Virus record (IMG/VR): IMGVR_UViG_3300033146_003231
Span: 1 to 21,585 of that record
Direction: 5' to 3' (one strand)
Source of the DNA: a virus
Length of the DNA stretch: 21,585 nucleotides
Positions 834-21,585 of this stretch are shown piece after piece. The position numbers were made by a program, and so were the translations under genes. How positions within the stretch are numbered: position 1 is the first letter of the stretch; each line of letters starts with the position of its first letter. Below the pieces are notes generated by a model. The model worked only from the letters and a program-made list of their open reading frames with translations, was not told the DNA's origin and made no database searches.

Positions 834-2861
834 TTATCTTAAGAAACTAAGAATTAATTGTTGTGATTCTGCTGCTTTACCTGCTGCCCACGCACCTGCT
901 TGTAGTTGTAGTGATAATTTTTGAGAATTAGCACTTTCTGCTGCGAAGTCAACATCTCTAATTTGAGATTCAGCCGCTTGTACATTTGCTGATGTCGCTT
1001 CATTAACTCTAACTCTTGATTCTAAAGAAATTTGTGTACTACCTACATTACTTCTAATAGCATCAATGCTTTTAATCGCAGCATCAATACTTACGATTGC
1101 TGCATCAGCACCTGCTTGAGTGGTTAAATCTAAATCACCATCTGCGACACCCATTGTAGCAATATCGGCATTAGTAATAGTCATACCAATTGTTTGACCA
1201 GATTCTGAACCAACATGGAATTTTTTACCGGTAAATGTACCATCTAATAAATTAATTCCATTGTATTGTGTTTGTTTTGCAATATCATCTGCTTGTAACA
1301 TTAGTTGTTTAACATCTTCTTCTAATGCTGCACGAGCCTCTGGCGAATTTGTGTCCGAAGATGCTTGAACTGCTTTATCTCTTGCTAAAGTTAAAAGTTC
1401 AGTGTACTCGTTAAGACCCGCATCTGCGATTTGAGTTAAACCAATCGCATCTTGTGCGTTTTTATTACCTTGTAATAAACCTTGTGATTGAGTTCTAAGT
1501 TGATTAGCAATTGCTAGTCCTGCCGCCATTTAACTTCAAATTAAATCGTTAATTTAATTTCGTTCTCTTATGAACTGCTATATGTTTCCATATAGATGAG
1601 ACTATATCTTCCGGCTATTTCTAGCTTGAGTGGTACTTCGGAATAACTTTATTCCTACTCCCTATCGGGATAGTCGTTGAACCTTCTTCTTTAACTTAAT
1701 ATTAAGAAGCTCGGATGCTGATTGTCTAATCCTAAAGATTTTCAAACATTCATAGTCTAATTTCTTGACTATTGTAGTTCTTTGGGCTCTCAAGAGTTTC
1801 CAGCAATTCTCCACTTTTATAGATGACACACGGCATATAAATCTTCTAAAAGGATTGAACATTTATCTTGTTTTGAACAGTTTTCGGAATGATGGATAAT
1901 CTCTAGGTTATTAATGTTACCAATTACATTTGGCAACACACTTAATCTAAATCCTTCATTTATTGAAAATCTATGGTCAAGGTGATGAGCATTTTCGATT
2001 AAGTCTGCTCTTCCTCTCAACTCTATATTAGGTAGTGATGATAAATTACATTTATTAGTTATTTTCCAAACTTGTAATTTATAGTCTTGATAGTCACTTA
2101 AAATTTTAGGAGGTAATTTTGGATATTTACATAAAATTTCTTTCAATGTAATCGAGCCATTATCTATTTTTGTTAGATAACCTTTCCTATATATTTCTTG
2201 TAACATTTTATAAGTTTTATTTGAATAAGTTTCTAATCTTATTTTATGAGAATCGCTCCCAATATAACCAAAAGTATTATTTTCTGATTTAGTTTTATTC
2301 ATTTTATTTCTTATTTCACTATTTTTAGTTTGGTCTTTACCTATAAATCCTAATTTTCCTGTTCTTTCTATAATATCTCTAGGTCTACTTTTGTTTAGTG
2401 TTTTGGTTATATTTTGTTTTTTGGTTGCTTCACTTAAATTGTGATTTTTATCAACACAACTCTTACACATATAATCAAATCCCTTATATAAACCTAGCCT
2501 ATCATTAAATGTTCTCATTATAGTTTTTGATTTAGTATTACAAGAAGGACAAATATATACTATACTATCATTATGAGATATTCTTTTTTCGTCAACATAA
2601 ATCACTTTCTGTTTAATTGAACCTGAATGTCTATACCACATAGTATAATTATTTGTTTTAATTCCTGATATACTTAAAATCTTAACCATAATATATTTCC
2701 TTTTTTATATTATTTATATTTTTCTATTTATCATCTGCTGCACGATTAATTCTAAAACCACTTGATAATTTTTCTAATGAACTGTCTAGTGAACCTTGTG
2801 TTTGTCTGTTATACATATTTGCGAATAAACTCGCTGTATTTGTTTGAATTGAAAAACTCAT
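834..2861 (-). CDS. Flagellin, gene split by a group I intron (exons 2861-2730 and 1526-834)
   Basis: Exon 1 gives residues 1-44, beginning MSFSIQTNTASLFANMYNRQ and ending GFRINRAADD. Exon 2 restores the frame with AAGLAIANQLRTQ. The joined protein is about 274 aa. The D0/D1 N-terminal flagellin core and a D1/D0 C-terminus (ESQIRDVDFAAESANSQK to LILSFLR) are present with almost no variable central domain. Without splicing, exon 1 runs AADDK-stop. The C-terminal D0 helix (LSLQLQAGAWAAGKAAESQQ) departs from the usual pattern of alternating small and polar residues, so packing into a host filament may differ. Start ATG at 2861-2859 follows AAAAAGGAT. A 6-bp leader hairpin (2900-2885) and a TATAAATA promoter (2935-2928) lie upstream. 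The 14-aa-conserved junction region is the strongest identity evidence. Confidence 0.9.
1817..2689 (-). CDS. HNH homing endonuclease encoded in the flagellin intron
   Basis: 290 aa. An N-terminal zinc-binding part has CPSC (C47, C50) and CKSC (C75, C78). The C-terminal HNH nuclease core starts at about residue 234: AHHLDHRFSINEGF, then NNLEIIHHSENCSKQDKC. The middle is basic and probably binds DNA. The gene starts 40 nt into the intron after AAAAAAGG and a TATAAATA box, and ends inside the P1 guide sequence. The expected role is to cleave intron-less flagellin alleles at the AADD/AAGLA site and so drive intron homing. The organisation resembles phage T4 intron endonucleases, but the nuclease family here is HNH. 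Confidence 0.88.
   Translation of the reverse strand: MVKILSISGIKTNNYTMWYRHSGSIKQKVIYVDEKRISHNDSIVYICPSCNTKSKTIMRTFNDRLGLYKGFDYMCKSCVDKNHNLSEATKKQNITKTLNKSRPRDIIERTGKLGFIGKDQTKNSEIRNKMNKTKSENNTFGYIGSDSHKIRLETYSNKTYKMLQEIYRKGYLTKIDNGSITLKEILCKYPKLPPKILSDYQDYKLQVWKITNKCNLSSLPNIELRGRADLIENAHHLDHRFSINEGFRLSVLPNVIGNINNLEIIHHSENCSKQDKCSILLEDLYAVCHL
2711..2718 (-). promoter_or_regulatory. TATAAATA late-type promoter inside the intron
   Basis: The octamer TATAAATA is followed by ATATAAAAAAGG and the HNH start codon at 2689. It matches the T4 late promoter consensus read by gp55-type sigma factors, and would let the endonuclease be made from a short late transcript independently of flagellin. Confidence 0.6.
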
Positions 2862-6924: not shown

Positions 6925-7755
6925 ATGACTTATTTGTATATAAAAACTCACAATAAAACTGGTCTACAATATTTTGGAAAATTTACTGGAACAGAAAGAA
7001 GATTTAAAAAATATAAAGGTTCTGGATTATACTGGAAAAGGCATATAAAAAAACATGGATATGATGTAACTACCAATATATATTCTATATTCGATATTAA
7101 TAATTGTAATATCGAAGATGTAGCATTGGATTTTTCTATAGAAAATAATATAGTAGACTCAAAAGAATGGGCTAACTTGGTTTTAGAAAATGGATTAGAT
7201 GGTTCTCTAAATAATCTAGGTAAAAAATTATGTAATGATGGTATTTTACAAAAATATTTTAGGGAAGATGATATACCACATAATTTTAATATAGGCAGCA
7301 TTTACGAATATAAATGGTATAATGATGATATAAACGAATATTTTATTACTATAAAGAATAGTAAAAATCTTAAACTTGGGAGACTAAAGAAAAAAGGGGA
7401 GTATTATAATAATGGAAAAGAATTATTATTGATTATGAATAAAATAAATATTCCTAAAGGTTTTGTAAAAGGTGGAATTATAAGTAAAGTCTATAATAAT
7501 GGTATAATAGAAAGACGATTTAAAACAGATGATATAATACCAGAAAATTTTAATCGTGGTATGCTAAAATTAGGTAAATGGTATAATAATGGGGAGATGG
7601 AAAAAAGGTTTAGAATAAATGAACCGATAACAAAGGGTTTTGAATTAGGCCAGATTATTGTAACCTGCCCACATTGTTTAACTAAATGTAATAAAGGGAA
7701 TGCTAAAAGATGGCATTTTAATAACTGTAAAAAGGCAATTGATGTATATAACTGA
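6925..7755 (+). CDS. GIY-YIG homing endonuclease with YNNG-type repeats
   Basis: 276 aa. The N-terminal GIY-YIG domain (residues 1-95) shows YLYIKTHN, YFGKF, YKGSGLYWKRHIKKHG and NNIVDSKEWANLVLENGLDG, the style of T4 Seg-like enzymes. The middle has spaced repeats of the form KWYNNGEMEKRF followed by a GF.xG turn. The C-terminus has a CPHC...HFNNC zinc-finger-like end. The first 95 residues closely match the antisense gene at 20296, while the C-terminal DNA-binding parts differ, as expected for enzymes with different targets. It is preceded by a structured leader, and its last 14 nt overlap the start of the next gene. Confidence 0.85.
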   Translation: MTYLYIKTHNKTGLQYFGKFTGTERRFKKYKGSGLYWKRHIKKHGYDVTTNIYSIFDINNCNIEDVALDFSIENNIVDSKEWANLVLENGLDGSLNNLGKKLCNDGILQKYFREDDIPHNFNIGSIYEYKWYNDDINEYFITIKNSKNLKLGRLKKKGEYYNNGKELLLIMNKINIPKGFVKGGIISKVYNNGIIERRFKTDDIIPENFNRGMLKLGKWYNNGEMEKRFRINEPITKGFELGQIIVTCPHCLTKCNKGNAKRWHFNNCKKAIDVYN

Positions 7756-8206
7756 TAAATTTAGAACGATAAAAAGATTTTTTAGAAATTTAATATGGTA
7801 TTGGGAAATATTAAAGACGGATGAATGGTGGGACTATAGCTTTTTTCTAGAGTTACAAGCTCGTAAATTAGAGAATATGTCAATTAATTGGAAGCACAGC
7901 CATTATGTGGATTTTGAAGCAGAGCAAGTTACTATTGATAGAGCTTTATTTTTAACTAAAAAATTAAAAGAAGATAACTATCTTGAAAATGCTATGGGAT
8001 TCATGGACATAAAATATGGAGCACTTGAGCTTAATGAAGATGACTCAGATGCTACTTCTTTATTTCTAAGAGGCGGGAAAGAACCATCTCCAGAAGAAGA
8101 GGAAGATTGGTTAAAAGCTTTCGCAGAAGCTAATAAAAATAAAGAAGCCGATAAAAAAGAACTCTTTGAATTAATTGCTACCCACCTAGAGTTTTGGTGG
8201 GATTAA
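7742..8206 (+). CDS. Unknown phage protein, 154 aa
   Basis: The ATG at 7742 follows AAAAAGGCAATTG and lies within the end of the endonuclease gene; an ATG at 7700 would add 14 residues but has no ribosome site. A basic, aromatic N-terminus (KFRTIKRFFRNLIWYWEILK) leads to WWDYSFFLELQARKLENM and an acidic tail ending LEFWWD. The W-D-Y-S-x-x-L-x-x-K-L pattern recurs in many T4-like phage hypothetical proteins from memory. Function unknown. Confidence 0.7.
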   Translation: MYITDKFRTIKRFFRNLIWYWEILKTDEWWDYSFFLELQARKLENMSINWKHSHYVDFEAEQVTIDRALFLTKKLKEDNYLENAMGFMDIKYGALELNEDDSDATSLFLRGGKEPSPEEEEDWLKAFAEANKNKEADKKELFELIATHLEFWWD

Positions 8207-9237: not shown

Positions 9238-9435
9238 ATGGAAGATATAGAGAATATTGATTATAATTTGAGTGATATGGTTATGGAACATTATCCAAAT
9301 GATAAAGGTCTTATTAATGGGTATGAAGTTCAGGAATGGATGGATATTCTTAAAGTTGATATTTCAAATAACCCCGAACGTTACTTAGTAAATTGGTTAA
9401 AAGATTTAGAAGATTGGAAGGTTAAAAATGGATAA
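9238..9435 (+). CDS. Small acidic protein, 65 aa
   Basis: MEDIENIDYNLSDMVMEHYP to WLKDLEDWKVKNG; helical, tryptophan-containing and acidic, in the size range of many phage host-takeover proteins. AAGGACTAAT precedes the ATG, and the 3' end overlaps the next gene by 8 nt. Function unknown. Confidence 0.6.
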   Translation: MEDIENIDYNLSDMVMEHYPNDKGLINGYEVQEWMDILKVDISNNPERYLVNWLKDLEDWKVKNG

Positions 9436-9637
9436 AAAATTATTCCGAAATTACACTCACGATTTACCTGCAATGATGAGAGATATTTACATAGCTTTAT
9501 GTAAAGGTTTTGATGAAATGCAAGACGATTTCGATGGTGTTGATAAAGGTAAAATGATTGGATTCATTATGAAGGAAACTAGAGGTTCAGTTAACCCTGT
9601 AGTTCTAAATGAAATCTTAAAGGATTTTGAGAAATGA
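9428..9637 (+). CDS. Small helical protein, 69 aa
   Basis: MDKKLFRNYTHDLPAMMRDI then KGFDEMQDDFDGVDKGKMIG. Overlaps both neighbours (start inside the previous gene, ATGA with the next). Not recognised. Confidence 0.6.
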   Translation: MDKKLFRNYTHDLPAMMRDIYIALCKGFDEMQDDFDGVDKGKMIGFIMKETRGSVNPVVLNEILKDFEK

Positions 9638-10884: not shown

Positions 10885-11397
10885 ATGTTTAAAATATTTG
10901 ATAAATTAAAATCACCTAAAAGCAGATTAAAAGAAGCTTTTGTTGCGAGGGTAAAAAATGGAAAATCGTTTAATACTTTTTATACTCATGGTATTCTTGA
11001 TAGCCGTATTCAAGTATTAAGAACAGATTTTTTAGCTGCACGACATGGTGTAAAATCTGCTTGTTTTACTGTGGCTGATAAAAATTATCCCAATAATAAA
11101 ATTAGAACAGATAATACTCAAGGTAATATTGGACACGAAACTTTAATCTTTCCTAATGGTGAGTTTTATAATTATAATCATAGCAAGTATGGTGACGACC
11201 ACTGGACTAGCCCAAGTTGTATTAATTATGATATGCTAGAATATCTTGTAAAGAATTCTGATATTCCCTTAGATAAAAGATATAAGCTTTTGGAATCTTC
11301 TAAATCACAAGGTGAAGAGTATTCACTTATTTACACTAAGAATCACAAAAAAATTAAAAAACAAATGGAAATTAATTTTCCAGAATATTTAATATAA
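10885..11397 (+). CDS. Unknown protein, 170 aa
   Basis: Basic N-terminus (MFKIFDKLKSPKSRLKEAFV), a histidine- and aspartate-rich centre (GHETLIFPNGEFYNYNHSKY then DDHWTSP) and a C-terminal NFPEYLI tail. The clustered H, D, N and C residues might bind metal, but no known motif fits. Starts one base after the previous stop with AAAGGAATA ahead. Confidence 0.65.
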   Translation: MFKIFDKLKSPKSRLKEAFVARVKNGKSFNTFYTHGILDSRIQVLRTDFLAARHGVKSACFTVADKNYPNNKIRTDNTQGNIGHETLIFPNGEFYNYNHSKYGDDHWTSPSCINYDMLEYLVKNSDIPLDKRYKLLESSKSQGEEYSLIYTKNHKKIKKQMEINFPEYLI

Positions 11398-11405
11398 GGA
11401 TTAAA

Positions 11406-11645
11406 ATGAGAGATGCAATAAATCAAGAACTTAAAATTGGTGATACTGTTTTATTCAAATTCGCCACTGGTACTGAATTATTAAAAGGTGTTATAGATGA
11501 ATTTAAAACTGTTAAAGAGGGTATTAAAGTTAATATAACATCTTTTGCCCCTTCAGAAAAAAGAAAAACTCAACACTGGCAAAGACCAGAAGCAATTGTA
11601 AAAATAGATTTAATCTATGAAGCAATGCCAGAATTAAATATATAA
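11406..11645 (+). CDS. Unknown small beta protein, 79 aa
   Basis: MRDAINQELKIGDTVLFKFA resembles the start of small SH3-like barrel proteins (a K-I-G-D-x-V-x-F segment), followed by GVIDEF and KVNITSF strands. The barrel fold is a guess from strand pattern. AAGGATTAAA precedes the ATG. Confidence 0.6.
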   Translation: MRDAINQELKIGDTVLFKFATGTELLKGVIDEFKTVKEGIKVNITSFAPSEKRKTQHWQRPEAIVKIDLIYEAMPELNI

Positions 11646-14274: not shown

Positions 14275-14964
14275 TTGATAAAGTTAGATAAATATATAAC
14301 TTTTTGTATTGATAATAATACAAATAATAGTGTAAAAAGTGATTTACATCATATATTACCTAAATCTCAATGGTTATTCCCACAGTTTGCAGACCTAAAA
14401 AATAATTGTTGGAATGGAACTTACTTAACACCAATTAATCATATTAAAGCACATAAATTATTAGCTGAGGCTATTAATCATTTATCAATTGATAAAGCTT
14501 TCACATGTTTATATGATTTTTCTTATGATGTATCTAATATGAATGAAGATGAAATAAATGATATAATTATAAGAGGTAGAAAACATTCTGAAGAAACTAA
14601 GCAAAAAATTAGTAAAAGTAATACTGGAAAATCCAGATTAAAAGGCGAATCTTCACCAAATTTTGGAAATAAACATAGTGATGAAACAAAAAAGAAAATG
14701 TCTAATAATCATGCAGATGTTTCAGGAGATAAAAATCCAATGTATGGGTGTAATAGAAGTGGTGAAGCCGGGCCAAACTTTGGAAATAAGCATAGCGATG
14801 AAGCAAAAAAGAAAATGTCTAATAATCGTAAAAATAAAGGCACAGGAAAAAGAGCAGGATATATTAAAAAAGCAAGCGTATGTATAATTTGCGGCTTAAT
14901 ATCTAGTAGTAATACTATAAGTAAATATCATAATGCTAAATGTAAAGGAAATAATAATGAATAA
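14275..14964 (+). CDS. HNH homing endonuclease with NUMOD3 repeats
   Basis: 229 aa from a TTG start. HNH core: LHHILPKSQWLFPQFADLKN then GTYLTPINHIKAHKLLA. From about residue 100 there are several NUMOD3-type DNA-binding repeats of the form GNKHSDETKKKMSNN, then a zinc-finger-like CIICG...YHNAKC end. Free-standing phage endonucleases have this layout. With the stop at 14266 the start is uncertain; reinitiation after the leader ORF is likely. The last 8 nt overlap the polymerase start, so endonuclease and polymerase are translationally linked. Confidence 0.85.
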   Translation: MIKLDKYITFCIDNNTNNSVKSDLHHILPKSQWLFPQFADLKNNCWNGTYLTPINHIKAHKLLAEAINHLSIDKAFTCLYDFSYDVSNMNEDEINDIIIRGRKHSEETKQKISKSNTGKSRLKGESSPNFGNKHSDETKKKMSNNHADVSGDKNPMYGCNRSGEAGPNFGNKHSDEAKKKMSNNRKNKGTGKRAGYIKKASVCIICGLISSSNTISKYHNAKCKGNNNE

Positions 14965-16870
14965 TTTTTCGGATTTTATGTACGAGAATGTATTTGAAAA
15001 ACCAGACTATTCAGGTAAAAAAGTAAAAAAACAAGTTTGGGCTAGATTATATAACCCCGCTACTAAACAAAGTGACTTTAAAAATGTCACTAGCTACAGC
15101 ATACCACACATTTATCAATATAGTAAAAATGGTCAGTTTGTCTCACATATAGATACTAGCCTAAAATTAACTCCTAAGAAATTCAACGAGATGGATGCTT
15201 TCGATAAATTCGTAAAAGAAATTAAAGTTGAAACTGGAGAAATGGTTCAGATTGAAGTTGATGGTGAAGAATTTGAATTTGAAGAAACTGTATTTGAAGA
15301 TGATGTATATGGATATACAAATAAACCTCACACATTTATTCACAGATATTTTACAGATGCTTTAAAATCAGACCACTTACATCGTACTTGGTTTTTCGAT
15401 ATTGAAACTCGCTCTGGTGTTGTAATACCAAATTCATTCCCGCATTCATATTTAGCCCTAGAAGAAATTTCTATGATACAGATATATGATAACTTTCTTA
15501 AAAGTTATATTGTAATTGGACTAAAAGATTTCACAGGTAAATTTGATGACCCTAAGAATACTAGATTTATTAAAGTTGATACTGAAGCAAAACTGTTAAC
15601 TTTATTTTTGCAACTATTAGAGAAGATGAAACCTAGTATTATTTCTGGTTGGAATAGTATGATGTTTGATATTCCTTATATTACAAATAGAGTCGCACGT
15701 GTATTAGATGGATTTAATGGACCTGTTGATGAGCTTAATAAAAAGAAATCTTATATTGAAATGGATAATGTTAAAAGATTAAGCCCTGTTCGTTCAGTGT
15801 ATGGAAGTTCAGCAAAAACTAAAGATGGAATGGAAGGGGTCACATCGCACTGGCAAGGAATTGCTTTAGTGGATTATCGTGAGCTTACAATTAAATATGG
15901 ATACTTAGGTTTACCAAGTTACTCTTTAGCTAACGTTGCAAGACACTTTGATTTATCACAAAAAATTGACCACTCTCAATATTCTAAATTTGATGATACA
16001 TATACGGGTGAGAATTATTTCATGCCTCTTGAACCAATGGTTGGAGATGAAGTATATGATATTCAGCTAGCATATAAAAATGGTACAGCGACTAAAACAG
16101 AAATGCAACAAGTTGTATATAATAGATTTGTTGATTACTCATTAAGAGATGTCGAGATACTTGTGCAACTTGATGAGATGACAAAATATTTAGCATCACA
16201 ACAAGGTATTGCATATACTTGTTCAGCATCATTTGATGATTGTTGGGGTACAGCTAAACACTGGAGTTCTTATATGTTTACTGAAGCACTTCAAAAACAA
16301 GAAGTCCTTCCGCTAACACAGAGATTCCCAGATAAAGATGTTGTATTCTTGGCTGGTTGGGTTAGAAATATGCCAGGAAAATATGAGTATATTTCTTCAT
16401 TTGACTTTACATCACTGTACCCATCGTTAATTATGGCTTTCAATATTGGAGCTGACGTATATGTGAATGATGAAGAAATGCACCAGGATTTAAAAGACCT
16501 CCGGGCTAAATTCTTTACTTATCACACTATGGAAAATGTTAATAGAGAATTAGTCTTACACGATGGAACTGAAGCAGCTCTTGGTAAAATGGTTCTTAAG
16601 CACAACGGAGAAATCTCAGATTTAGAAGAAGAAACTATTTTCTATAAATCTTTAATCGATAATAAAGATGAGATTTCTGCAGTGTTACAGAAGCACGATG
16701 TTTGTGCTACACCAAATGGATTTTTCTACAGAAAAAATAAAGAATCTCAAAGTTCTATATTAATGAGAAGAAACTTCTTAAATCGTGTAAAAGCGAAACG
16801 TGCTGGTCAAGCTGATGGTGCAGAACTTGAGAAACTTAAAAAAGAAATGCAACATAGAGGCTTATTATAA
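14957..16870 (+). CDS. 43: Family B DNA polymerase, N-terminal half (T4 gp43-like)
   Basis: 637 aa from ATG 14957, which follows AAAGGAAATAATA; an upstream ATG at 14933 adds eight residues without support. Exonuclease motifs are intact: Exo I FFDIETR (D148, E150), Exo II GWNSMMFDIPY (N233, D238), Exo III YSLRDVEI (D398). Polymerase motif A SFDFTSLYPSLI has the metal ligand D483. The frame then ends at LKKEMQHRGLL, in the fingers region ahead of motif B. Motifs B and C are in the gene at 17879. So this chain has the 3'-5' exonuclease and half of the palm, and must join the second chain to polymerise. An antisense endonuclease gene starts right at the break. Confidence 0.92.
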   Translation: MNNFSDFMYENVFEKPDYSGKKVKKQVWARLYNPATKQSDFKNVTSYSIPHIYQYSKNGQFVSHIDTSLKLTPKKFNEMDAFDKFVKEIKVETGEMVQIEVDGEEFEFEETVFEDDVYGYTNKPHTFIHRYFTDALKSDHLHRTWFFDIETRSGVVIPNSFPHSYLALEEISMIQIYDNFLKSYIVIGLKDFTGKFDDPKNTRFIKVDTEAKLLTLFLQLLEKMKPSIISGWNSMMFDIPYITNRVARVLDGFNGPVDELNKKKSYIEMDNVKRLSPVRSVYGSSAKTKDGMEGVTSHWQGIALVDYRELTIKYGYLGLPSYSLANVARHFDLSQKIDHSQYSKFDDTYTGENYFMPLEPMVGDEVYDIQLAYKNGTATKTEMQQVVYNRFVDYSLRDVEILVQLDEMTKYLASQQGIAYTCSASFDDCWGTAKHWSSYMFTEALQKQEVLPLTQRFPDKDVVFLAGWVRNMPGKYEYISSFDFTSLYPSLIMAFNIGADVYVNDEEMHQDLKDLRAKFFTYHTMENVNRELVLHDGTEAALGKMVLKHNGEISDLEEETIFYKSLIDNKDEISAVLQKHDVCATPNGFFYRKNKESQSSILMRRNFLNRVKAKRAGQADGAELEKLKKEMQHRGLL

Positions 16871-17788
16871 ATGATATATTTTATCTAACTCCAATAATAT
16901 ATCATTTTTTACTGATATATTAAACCATTCTGTTCTCCCATCTCCTTCTAATAATGGATTATTATCTAAATTATATTTACGATGATAATAATCCTCATAC
17001 ATATATACATGTGCAAAAAAATATTTTTTTACTATTTTTATATCAGGTATAAATTTTAAGAAAGATTTTATTCGCTCATCTGGTTTCATAGAAACACCTA
17101 TTTTAATCTTATTAAGTTCTTTAGATTCCATTATATATAAATACCCATATCTATAATATTTAGATGGGTCATAATATAAAGAATTTGATAACCCAGTACA
17201 AATTTGAGACCCATTTTTTACCCCATATTTATTCAAACATGATAACTCTTTATTTATTTTAGTCTCTTCTGAACTATTAGCACATTTTCTTCCGCAAAAT
17301 TTTGTGTATTCGCTAGCATGCGAATAAGTGTAAGTTGTTGCTTTTATTTTACAATTTGGGCACATTGGTTTTTTCACTATATTATTTGTAATACAATAAC
17401 CAGCCTCTCTTATACTATTACACCAGTATAACTCTTCTGGAATTATATATTCAATATTTGCTGATGATTTTAATCGTCCATTATTTGTGTAAATATCTTT
17501 CACATTATTTTTGTTAAGCATTTTGGCATCTTTATCTTTAGGCCTTACAATTGACCGTGAACAAGTAGTTGAACAGCATGCACTATAACCTGAGCTCATA
17601 TTCTTAAAATTTAATGGGTTGTTACAATAACATTTTGGTTCTATATCTATATTATTTTTATAACAATATACTGCCTCAATATTAGTCTTATGCCAGGTTT
17701 CTGGGTCTGGGATATATAATAATGATTTAGTTCTACTTATCCTATTGCCAGAAATTATATTTGCGTAATTATTTTTATTTAGTATCAT
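16865..17788 (-). CDS. Homing endonuclease-like protein with T5orf172-type GIY-YIG domain
   Basis: 307 aa. The N-terminal 190 residues have paired cysteine clusters (CYCNNP...CCSTTC; CPNC...FCGRKC) that look like zinc-binding DNA-recognition modules. The C-terminal part (from about residue 213: YRYGYLYIMESKEL, KIKIGVSMKPDERI, YYHRKYN, GDGRTEWFNIS) fits the T5orf172/MUG113 branch of GIY-YIG nucleases. It lies antisense between the two polymerase halves. Its stop shares 6 bases with the end of the N-half gene, which fits an insertion that truncated gene 43. No ribosome site; a TATAAATA box lies 4 nt before the ATG. Confidence 0.8.
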   Translation of the reverse strand: MILNKNNYANIISGNRISRTKSLLYIPDPETWHKTNIEAVYCYKNNIDIEPKCYCNNPLNFKNMSSGYSACCSTTCSRSIVRPKDKDAKMLNKNNVKDIYTNNGRLKSSANIEYIIPEELYWCNSIREAGYCITNNIVKKPMCPNCKIKATTYTYSHASEYTKFCGRKCANSSEETKINKELSCLNKYGVKNGSQICTGLSNSLYYDPSKYYRYGYLYIMESKELNKIKIGVSMKPDERIKSFLKFIPDIKIVKKYFFAHVYMYEDYYHRKYNLDNNPLLEGDGRTEWFNISVKNDILLELDKIYHL

Positions 17789-17878: not shown

Positions 17879-19016
17879 ATGAATTTAGAAAATTATTCTG
17901 ATGAAGAATTACTAAAAAAATACAGTGAATTACAGCAATCTAAAGACTTGAATGAAAATATTTCTCAAGTTCTTAAGATTTTGCTTAATTCTTATTATCG
18001 GCAGTCTCAGCATGGGTCATATTACGTACAGTAATGGTAACATAACAGCTTCTAGTATCACTACAGCAGGCCGTATGAGCAATAAGATAGCTTCTATGTA
18101 TGCTAGTAATAAAGTTGCAGGTATGCTTGGTGAGCCCACAGGGACAGATTTAAGATATGTTCCACAAGTAGATACTGATAGTTACTATCTAAATCTAGGT
18201 GATGTTGTTAAAACTAAGATGAGTAATTTCGATAAAGATAAAAAAGTGAAAGCTGTTCTTAAGATTTCTGATACTATTATACTTGAGAGTAATAAAAAAG
18301 CGATGGTAGATATTGCAGAAACATTAAACTTAAGAGATACTAAAGCCTTAAACTTAGAGAATGAAATTATTGCTGATGGATTTGTATCATTAGCAGCTAA
18401 AAGATATTTCGGTCGTAAAGTTGTAGAAGATGGAACTATATTAGCTAAACCTAAAATGAAGTCAACGGGTATATCTCTAGTTTCTAAGAAGACTCCTAAG
18501 TTTTTAAGAGATGCACTTGCACCTGTACTAGAAATTATACTTGATGGTACGAATTCAGATTTGAATAAGTATATCAAAGGGGTCCGAGCAGAATTTGGTG
18601 AGCTAAGTCCTACTGAATTTGCACGTTCAGCAAATGTTAATAATCTTTCTTATAGTCCTGTTGGATTTAAGTACAAGAGACAAAAGGAAGATGGTAAATT
18701 CTTAACAGCCCCAATGGGCTCGCACGCTTCTTTAGAGTTCAATAGATATATTAAAGAAAATAATATGACTGGAAAATACAACCCTATTGAGGTTGGTGAA
18801 GCAGTAAGTTATGTTTATATTAATGAACCTAATGAGAAAAAATTGCATGGCTCTTTAGCTTGGAATGACCCGAACTTTACAGATGATGTAGACTTAAAAG
18901 ATTTTGTATCTTATGCTGAACATTTTCATAAAGATTTTGAGAAGAAAGTTGAGATTGTTGTTAAGCCTATTGGATGGAATATTTATAATAAGACTGAAGA
19001 AATGGAAGTCTGGTAA
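17879..19016 (+). CDS. 43: Family B DNA polymerase, C-terminal half, with a +1 frameshift in motif B
   Basis: The first frame (17879-18034) reads MNLENYSDEELLKKYSELQQ to KILLNSYY and then stops as RQSQHGSYYVQ. Skipping one base (C at 17999) continues as GSLSMGHITYSNG, completing motif B KILLNSYYG. The next frame carries motif C QVDTDSYYLNL (D at 18171 and 18177) and the thumb KPKMKSTGISLVSKKTPKFL, similar to T4 gp43. The shifted product would be about 378 aa, so both halves together total about 1015 aa against 898 for T4 gp43. The skipped base is not in a homopolymer; TAT TAT CGG places a rare arginine codon in the A site. Programmed +1 shift, true mutation or sequence error are all open. Confidence 0.85.
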
Positions 19017-19579: not shown

Positions 19580-20296
19580 TTAATTCATATGAACACATAC
19601 TTTATTAAGTATTCCTAATTTTCTAGCGGCAGCATAAGCTCCACTAGAACCCCTCCCAAATTTTGTTCTTGTTGTATATTTTAACGCTTCAATTTTAATA
19701 TTATTTTCACACCATGATATTATTATAGCGGGCATATGCGAGCATACCTCATTCATTATTTTCCTTTTGGAAGCAGCTTGATATGCCATCAAATCATGTT
19801 TACGAAATTCATCTCTAGTTAAATATTTTGATGCTGACATTTTAATATTCGCATTTGTCCAAGTAAATTTTTTAATCATATGACTACATATATTTTTTAA
19901 AATACCTAATTTTAAAGCTGTTTGATAAGCCCCGCCACACTTATTTTTAAATTCGCTTCTATGTTTATATTTTAACGCTTCAATTTTAATATTATTTTCA
20001 TCCCACTTTATTATTCCACCATCTAAACCATTTTCTTCAGTTAAATTTGCCCAATCATTAGAGTCTACTATATTATTTCTTTTAGAAAAATCTAGAGCTA
20101 CTTCTTCTAATAATGGGTCATCTTCATAAAAAATACCGTATAATTCAGTAGTTACATTATAGTTATGCTTCTTAATATGCCTTTTCCAGTATAAACCGGA
20201 ACCCTTGTAGTTATGTATATTTTCATTTATTGTTTTACCGAAATATTTTAATTGTGTTATATTGTGAGTTTTAATATATAGATATACTAGTCGCAT
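19580..20296 (-). CDS. GIY-YIG homing endonuclease with A-Y-x-A-A/C-x-H-M repeats
   Basis: 238 aa. The GIY-YIG domain (residues 1-97: VYLYIKTHN, YFGKTIN, YKGSGLYWKRHIKKHNYNVT, NNIVDSNDWANLTEENGLDG) closely matches the gene at 6925. The C-terminal half consists of three repeats of about 47 residues, each with IKIEALKYK/T-x-R-x-F, an A-Y-x-x-A-x-K-x-x-I stretch and a C-x-H-M end. Such repeats are DNA-binding modules in other phage endonucleases as I recall. An AAGGATA ribosome site and a pseudoknotted leader precede it. Its stop abuts the stop of the convergent frameshifted gene. Confidence 0.85.
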   Translation of the reverse strand: MRLVYLYIKTHNITQLKYFGKTINENIHNYKGSGLYWKRHIKKHNYNVTTELYGIFYEDDPLLEEVALDFSKRNNIVDSNDWANLTEENGLDGGIIKWDENNIKIEALKYKHRSEFKNKCGGAYQTALKLGILKNICSHMIKKFTWTNANIKMSASKYLTRDEFRKHDLMAYQAASKRKIMNEVCSHMPAIIISWCENNIKIEALKYTTRTKFGRGSSGAYAAARKLGILNKVCVHMN

Positions 20297-20305
20297 ATAT
20301 TATCC

Positions 20306-20414
20306 TTATAAATTTAATTATAAGAGGAGTATGCTAGGACTCAAATTATATATGTAGATGGAGTCCTAGCATAGAGCATCTACATATATAATCTCTCTTA
20401 TACTATATTTATAA
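20306..20414 (-). ncRNA. Pseudoknotted leader of a GIY-YIG endonuclease (copy 2)
   Basis: Same plan as 6803-6918. A perfect 16-bp stem joins 20345-20360 with 20377-20392. Its loop element pairs perfectly over 13 bp with downstream sequence (20361-20373 with 20330-20342), making an H-type pseudoknot. Outer pairings are CTCTTATA (20395-20402) with TATAAGAG (20319-20326) and 20407-20414 with 20306-20313. The outer arms are nearly identical to copy 1, but the stem and pseudoknot sequences are entirely different and still pair, which is covariation. TATAAATA (20413-20406) lies in the 5' outer arm. Confidence 0.82.
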
Positions 20415-20543: not shown

Positions 20544-20599
20544 TAAGGTAACTTTGAATCTCCCAAAAACTTTTCAAATTTACCACCAGAAGCTTATAA

Positions 20600-20696
20600 T
20601 TTAAGCTAAAACTAATGTATAACATGTTATAATAGTACATATAAAGAGAGAGCGTTCAAACGAAACTCCTTCTTGAAAAGAATGAAAATTCTTTTT
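20600..20696 (+). ncRNA. Small promoter-hairpin-terminator unit 1
   Basis: Promoter tracts and TATAAT (20628-20633), a transcript from about 20640 with GAGCGTTCAAACGAAACTC (20650-20668; CGT-TCAA-ACG hairpin inside GAG/CTC), then an AAAAGAAT-GAAA-ATTCTTTT hairpin and T (20676-20696). Predicted RNA is about 57 nt. No ORF. Confidence 0.55.
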
Positions 20697-20752
20697 ATAT
20701 TTAAGCTAACTTTAATGTTAGTTATGGTATAATATAGAATATAAAGGATGAG
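20677..20752 (+). repeat. 76-bp direct repeat, copy 1
   Basis: Identical to 20777-20852 and exactly 100 bp before it. It covers the terminator-like hairpin, the phased tracts, TATAAT (20728-20733) and ATAAAGGATGAG. Confidence 0.95.
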
Positions 20753-20796
20753 TCTCGAAAGAAACTTTGACTTTAGAAAGAATGAAAATTCTTTTT
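20740..20796 (+). ncRNA. Small promoter-hairpin-terminator unit 2
   Basis: Transcribed from the promoter at 20728-20733. The leader GAGTCTCGAAAGAAACTT can fold as GAG-TCT-CGAA-AGA-AA-CTT, the same shape as unit 1 with exchanged inner pairs, and ends with GAAAGAAT-GAAA-ATTCTTTT-T. Confidence 0.55.
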
Positions 20797-20852
20797 ATAT
20801 TTAAGCTAACTTTAATGTTAGTTATGGTATAATATAGAATATAAAGGATGAG
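20777..20852 (+). repeat. 76-bp direct repeat, copy 2
   Basis: See 20677-20752. TATAAT at 20828-20833. Confidence 0.95.
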
Positions 20853-20901
20853 CGTTCAAACGAAACTCTTCCTTTATTTAAAAGAATTGAAAAATTCTTT
20901 T
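20840..20901 (+). ncRNA. Small promoter-hairpin-terminator unit 3
   Basis: Carries GAGCGTTCAAACGAAACTC again (20850-20868), exactly 200 bp after unit 1. It ends with AAAAGAATT-GAAA-AATTCTTTT (20880-20901), a nine-pair hairpin with the same GAAA loop but little T run after it. Confidence 0.55.
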
Positions 20902-20903
20902 GA

Positions 20904-20939
20904 AATTTAAGCTAGGTTTAAGCTTAAACATGGTATAAT
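20904..20939 (+). promoter_or_regulatory. TTTAA-phased promoter of the long structured RNA
   Basis: TTTAAGCTAGG-TTTAAGCTTAAACATGG-TATAAT (20934-20939): the most regular copy of the promoter type, with two TTTAAG tracts 11 bp apart. Confidence 0.75.
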
Positions 20940-20944
20940 ATAGA

Positions 20945-21585
20945 AGTAGAAGATAAGTTAGTTCAAAGAAGATATTGAGTTCAAAATTAAAAAATCGTAA
21001 TAGGTTTAATCTGATATTTTCTTTGAGTTAATTAAAATCATAGTAAACAGAAACGCTGGAGACTGTCCGTAAGGAAGATGCACCGGCCACTGGAGGTTAC
21101 TTGATTTACCTAAGCTGAAAGGTAATTAATTTTGTCAAGATTAGACTGTTTAAGACATAAAAATAAACAAAGGTATCGTTGATTCGTTGGAAGACTCGGA
21201 ATTGAATAAGTAGTAGAGGTTATAGTCTGCGAAAAAGAATTCAGGAAGAATGAGGAATGCAGGTACAAATTGATTCAATGAAGATTATTTGACACCAACC
21301 AGAGAATGGTATAGGTAATTTTCATTGAGTTAATCACTCTACCGTTGTAAGTTATAGGACTTTTGAGAACAAAGTAAAACTTTCCGAGAACCGTAACTCG
21401 TAATCTGTTCGGTGATTTTGAGACGAATTTGTAGAATAAAATTCTCAAAATCCTTGGTATTGATTATACTGAGGTTATACTTATATAGAAGCACCAGGAT
21501 GAATTTATTCACTGTAACAGACGCTAATATAAGTTAAGCAGTTCTTGGGTAAGGCTCAAACTCCCTTGAATTATACGACTGTAGG
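20945..21585 (+). ncRNA. Long structured non-coding RNA (continues past the window)
   Basis: At least 640 nt with no credible ORF and a balanced, less A/T-extreme composition than intergenic DNA nearby. Long helices can be read: 20958-20976 with 21013-21031 (19 pairs, four G·U); 21270-21289 with 21314-21333 (20 pairs including G·U); 21414-21430 with 21439-21452 (14 pairs, one bulge); 21479-21488 with 21524-21534. Smaller ones are 21044-21050/21146-21152, 21055-21059/21083-21087 enclosing a TCC-GTAA-GGA GNRA hairpin, and 21100-21104/21135-21139 enclosing TTACC/GGTAA. Long phage RNAs of this kind are known (GOLLD, ROOL), but membership cannot be judged by eye. No tRNA was found in it. Confidence 0.7.

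Follow-up and report, generated by a model that had tools for sequence, protein, structure and literature searches.

The window analysed here is the whole of the IMG/VR virus record IMGVR_UViG_3300033146_003231, 21,585 bases long. Judged from its sequence, the phage is T4-like, and it encodes a T4-like family B DNA polymerase in two ORFs (14933 to 16870 and 17952 to 19016; Pfam/PHROG). The best matches of the N-terminal half among phage records are phages of Campylobacter jejuni, at about 29% identity. Nearer relatives were found in IMG/VR, namely G001 (183 kb), G002 (52 kb), and G003 (44 kb), with 51 to 60% identity in the best polymerase segments, and a polymerase search of GTDB genomes returned no relative. 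Because of the matches to C. jejuni phages and the IMG/VR relatives, we infer a Campylobacter-like host, i.e., bacteria of the Campylobacterota type. The window polymerase is split by a homing-endonuclease-like ORF on the minus strand (16865 to 17788) carrying a T5orf172 domain; in G002, the polymerase is split at a similar place, again by a homing-endonuclease-like ORF that runs opposite to it (15568 to 16488).

At the other end of the window, the minus strand carries genes for FlaG (61 to 420) and flagellin (834 to 1529), neither of which was found in G001 to G003. The flagellin gene (834 to 2873) is apparently interrupted by a group I intron, with a 5′ exon at about 2727 to 2873 ending in ...RINRAADDK and a 3′ exon at 834 to 1529 reading AAGLAIANQ.... 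Inside the gene lies a match to RF00028 above the cut-off (1578 to 1862, minus strand, E 6.9e-17), and the ORF at 1817 to 2689 within the intron has, by its sequence, the look of a homing endonuclease.

Upstream of the promoters described below lies another homing-endonuclease-like ORF (19580 to 20296, minus strand), assigned by sequence and with no Pfam hit. Between this ORF and the promoters, at 20330 to 20392, a perfect 16-bp inverted repeat overlaps a second one with 82% complementarity. The features relevant to the RNA, all on the plus strand, are as follows.

17952 to 19016, +, C-terminal half of the DNA polymerase (split T4-like gene, Pfam/PHROG); synteny anchor, followed in relatives by the tRNA/tmRNA cluster
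20599 to 20698, +, tandem unit 1 (repeat family D1): TATAAT at 20628 to 20633, short hairpin GAGCGUUCAAACGAAACUC, then a AAAAGAAU-GAAA-AUUCUUUU stem with a U-rich tail
20699 to 20798, +, tandem unit 2: TTTAAT at 20711, TATAAT at 20728, leader of about 50 nt, AU-rich terminator-like hairpin
20799 to 20905, +, tandem unit 3: TTTAAT at 20811, TATAAT at 20828, leader hairpin as in unit 1, hairpin without a U run
20917 to 20939, +, promoter of unit 4: TTTAAG-N11-TATAAT (TTTAAG at 20917, TATAAT at 20934), predicted start at about 20946
20946 to 21585, +, predicted structured non-coding transcript of at least 640 nt, with its 3′ end past the window or just inside it
20956 to 21033, +, long hairpin H1: 22 continuous pairs, or 25 with one mismatch; 6 G-U pairs in the continuous run, 7 overall
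21036 to 21268, +, middle segment: GC content 0.37; predicted helices including GCUGG/CCGGC, with a GUAA loop at 21069 to 21072
21269 to 21334, +, long hairpin H2: 23 continuous pairs, 6 of them G-U; sequence-related copy of H1
21344 to 21579, +, multibranched 3′ domain: closing helix GUUGUAAGUU/AAUUAUACGAC, most helices with pair probabilities of 0.7 to 0.95

Tandem promoters and the ORF-free region

The repeat units of about 100 nt that begin at 20599, 20699, and 20799 (family D1) combine a promoter, a leader with a short hairpin, and an AU-rich terminator-like stem. Since the hairpin of unit 3 lacks a U run, read-through from this unit is plausible. Unit 4, the last of the four tandem repeats, starts with a strong predicted promoter that opens the long RNA. 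Promoters of its class, TTTAA[GT]-N10-12-TATAAT, number 8 in the window (0.75 expected from shuffles) and 54 in G001 (5.25 expected), most of them 20 to 30 nt ahead of the start of a gene or ORF; three of the eight window copies (20711, 20811, and 20917) stand before the ORF-free block. An earlier note on this DNA had proposed a dedicated promoter, and this is borne out by a gene-linked promoter class that is enriched in both sequences and has one copy at 20917. For C. jejuni, the motifs TTTAAGTnTT (−35) and TATAAT (−10) have been described, which the window elements resemble, although with shorter spacing (PMC3824568). The promoter was also the sole notable match in BLASTN searches against phages; it is found in the Campylobacter phages CPt10 and CP20, ahead of an ordinary gene.

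Between 20945 and 21585, the longest ORF comprises at most 57 amino acids in all frames and at most 50 on the plus strand, whose frames contain 19 to 20 stops per 213 codons. As claimed previously, no frame is open through to the window end. The region as a whole folds with a minimum free energy of −150.4 kcal/mol (z −3.06), equaled by 1 of 300 dinucleotide shuffles, and its minus strand folds more weakly (z −1.73, 16 of 300 shuffles). A structured non-coding transcript with its own promoter is thus well supported on sequence grounds, namely by the promoter, the absence of ORFs, and the folding.

The helices of 19 and 20 pairs described in the earlier note are present and in fact longer, with 22 and 23 continuous pairs in H1 and H2, respectively; neither hairpin was matched in 500 shuffles, and a 23-bp helix did not occur in any of 300 dinucleotide shuffles of the region. 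The two predicted hairpins are copies of one hairpin of about 22 bp. When the H1 region is turned into a single-sequence covariance model, H2 is picked up in the other 551 nt (E 7e-5), and in the reverse search a model containing H2 picks up H1 in 671 nt (E 1.4e-4). In the alignment of the two, all 21 pairs are canonical in both copies, with four double changes, three G-U/A-U exchanges, and no breaking change; as both were picked as hairpins, the canonical pairing is in part a consequence of this selection, and what is independent of it is how similar the two are to each other. This compensation lies within one RNA and is distinct from covariation between genomes. In the aligned cores of both helices, the non-Watson-Crick pairs are G-U on the plus strand, and none is A-C, in line with the suggestion that they reflect RNA rather than a DNA palindrome. 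Such G-U-rich pairing argues for an RNA made from the plus strand.

The medium-sized helices that had also been noted fare unevenly: the 3′ domain is moderately significant (z −2.84, 3 of 500 shuffles), whereas the middle segment folds at chance level (z +0.4, 311 of 500 shuffles). Since the middle segment is not significant, what speaks for an ornate RNA is the two hairpins plus the 3′ domain. Regarding the GNRA loops, only one is predicted within the RNA, i.e., the GUAA loop at 21069 to 21072 on a 3-bp stem, whereas the GAAA loops sit in the short upstream hairpins. A role as a CsrA sponge was considered and rejected, GGA not being enriched in the region (1.40 versus 1.24 per 100 nt).

Known RNA families and the clusters of related phages

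The proposed kinship with GOLLD or ROOL was not upheld, as covariance-model searches of the region with the ROOL, GOLLD, OLE, and HEARO models gave no match. Specifically, neither GOLLD (RF02032) nor ROOL (RF03087) matched the window at E≤10, and ROOL was likewise absent from the Rfam scans; HEARO (RF02033) and OLE (RF01071) had no match in the region. The GOLLD search works, since its model recognizes a partial GOLLD in the phage G014 (see below), whereas the ROOL search had no positive control match and the OLE model no positive control. Rfam scans at gathering and at permissive thresholds yielded nothing beyond chance hits in the region. The gathering scan of the whole window is weak on its own, because it missed the group I intron that the single-family search found, and the region was scanned again with laxer filters. 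The group I intron model (RF00028) had its lone window match in the flagellin gene and none at 20945 to 21585. None of the collections searched yielded a homologue of the RNA: BLASTN against plasmids gave noise only, exact RNA patterns had no match in IMG/VR and GTDB genomes, a hairpin-motif pattern had seven matches, apparently all within open reading frames, and searches of G001 to G003 and about 40 other loci or records by nhmmer, by BLAST, and with three covariance models, each built from a single sequence, detected nothing significant but generic long hairpins.

GOLLD and ROOL, whose function is not known, form homo-oligomeric RNA cages and may reach high abundance and a high degree of order. 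Both are frequently encountered close to the tRNA islands of phages (PMC12286853). ROOL, like the predicted RNA of the window, is a large structured RNA, encoded by phages and prophages and often found by tRNA islands, with a model of 574 positions and a length of 659 nt for env-120 (PMC12286853), but the window RNA does not match its covariance model. With GOLLD it would share the tRNA-island setting, the tRNA cluster of the window phage being predicted by synteny with G001 and G002, and it differs in lacking a match to that model. OLE, a structured bacterial RNA of about 600 nt, is similar in size and differs in hosts and gene context. The tRNA cluster of T4 contains two extra stable RNAs, RNA C and RNA D, of roughly 100 to 150 nt, which are not tRNAs and lie within the tRNA transcription unit; likened by description only, they share the T4-like phage setting with the window RNA but are much shorter.

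In G001 and G002, 23 tRNAs and a tmRNA lie downstream of the same polymerase gene. ARAGORN detected no tRNA or tmRNA in the window itself, so the downstream cluster is predicted from this synteny, according to which the window probably breaks off where a tRNA/tmRNA cluster starts. The G002 cluster opens with promoters of the same class as in the window, arranged in tandem (12669 and 12570). Unannotated RNAs and long hairpins also occur in the clusters of the relatives. Helices with 17 or more pairs are concentrated there; they number four in the 6.3-kb cluster of G001 versus four in the 177 kb elsewhere, and three in the 6.1-kb cluster of G002 versus two in the 46 kb elsewhere, some hairpins entering these counts twice, once from each strand. 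On the minus strand of G002, at about 7477 to 8129, a promoter (8129) leads into an ORF-free RNA (7477 to 8110) that is about 600 nt long, contains a 27-bp helix, and is located between a gene of the phrog_11311 family and the tmRNA and without an Rfam match. This RNA and that of the window share the promoter class, a size of about 600 nt, the lack of an ORF, and very long helices, but there is no detectable sequence homology, and the G002 RNA precedes the tmRNA rather than standing at the cluster head.

Via phrog_11311, a protein family of the clusters, further phages carrying tRNA arrays were reached. At two such loci, an ORF-free, strongly folded stretch lies directly ahead of the first tRNA (L124, 4726 to 5200; L125, 5416 to 6007). 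The 328-kb jumbo phage G014 has a tRNA array with the phrog_11311 family and a sub-threshold partial GOLLD at 266206 to 266694 (L134, 2201 to 2689), which scores 81.8 bits (E 1.6e-22; cut-off 150 bits) and overlaps an odd tRNA call.

Further RNAs were observed in these genomes. The tRNA clusters contain tRNA-like RNAs not called by ARAGORN (G001, 33056 to 33189 and 33735 to 33815; G002, 9380 to 9490, minus strand), with a closing helix of 10 to 21 bp and two T-arm-like hairpins of the GGUUCGAUUCC type. Two cluster spacers (G001, 34943 to 35270; G002, 11263 to 11577, minus strand) have in common an unannotated motif, GGCAAUCAGCGCC...AAGCGGGAACCUA...GAAAAUCCUUA, which to the eye is reminiscent of a portion of the group I intron core and has no such Rfam hit. 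The contig ends of G001 (182000 to 183351 and 1 to 300) carry a long, coding array of repeats of about 60 bp of the LTSLEGAPEVVNGNF type.

Interpretation of the window RNA

The explanation we favor, to which we would give an even chance of being correct, is that the window RNA is an unclassified non-coding transcript of a phage stable-RNA cluster, with the duplicated hairpins serving as sites for processing or protein binding. The stable-RNA gene cluster would begin at this locus, with the tRNAs following, and the four tandem promoters, recognized by their motifs, would drive the long transcript predicted from ORF absence and structure. H1 and H2 would bracket the middle segment of about 235 nt and stand ahead of the folded 3′ domain, as repeated double-stranded recognition sites at which host RNase III may cleave or a single protein may bind. 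The endonuclease RNase III is specific for double strands (PMC6121014), and the predicted helix length of 22 to 23 bp fits the approximately 20-bp helix of a hairpin processed by it. Processing of the primary transcript would then release at least one stable, structured RNA, or several, which may act as large phage RNAs made alongside the phage tRNAs.

Alternatively, the RNA could remain intact and unprocessed from 20946 to about 21580 as an ornate RNA of about 640 nt with a GOLLD- or ROOL-like function, either RNA-only assembly or a host-directed scaffold, in which H1 and H2 would be struts. Its length, phage origin, and probable tRNA-island setting are as in ROOL and GOLLD (PMC12286853), the closing of the 3′ domain at 21579 with high pair probability suggests that the end is nearby, and G014, which shares the marker family phrog_11311, has a GOLLD-like match in its tRNA array. 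Considering, however, that no covariance model matches, that the middle segment is not significantly folded, and that the folding signal comes mostly from two plain hairpins, we regard this reading as rather doubtful. It is also unlikely, somewhat more so, that the region serves as an extended, structured 5′ leader for a protein or tRNA operon lying downstream, i.e., an attenuator or transcription-control region with no stable-RNA function of its own. The three upstream tandem units, with promoter, short hairpin, and terminator-like stem, are indeed attenuator-like, and the stretches ahead of the first tRNA in L124 and L125 are likewise ORF-free structured leaders; yet 640 nt and two paralogous 22-bp hairpins are long for a leader, and apart from one weak match at 21452 to 21474 there is no internal terminator with a U run. 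That the helices are inverted repeats at the DNA level, or debris of a mobile element near a homing endonuclease and without RNA function, appears highly improbable. The homing-endonuclease-like ORF and the inverted repeats just upstream would fit such an origin, but the minus strand folds weakly, a promoter is directed into the region, and the departures from Watson-Crick pairing in the H1 and H2 cores are G-U on the plus strand and never A-C, so that RNA is favored over a decaying DNA palindrome.

Beyond the favored reading of a cluster transcript with duplicated hairpin sites, we tentatively suggest, as a possibility with the balance against it, that the window RNA is the first representative of a new class of large RNAs in phages, marked by internally duplicated long hairpins, and that it belongs to a larger group of structured RNAs, so far undescribed, which fill the tRNA/tmRNA clusters of T4-like phages of the Campylobacterota type. 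The duplicated hairpin offers a concrete, testable handle, namely cleavage by RNase III or a single protein partner. If the suggestion is true, an unrelated RNA at a GOLLD- or ROOL-like site in T4-like phages of Campylobacterota-type hosts would suggest that phage tRNA islands repeatedly collect large structured RNAs.
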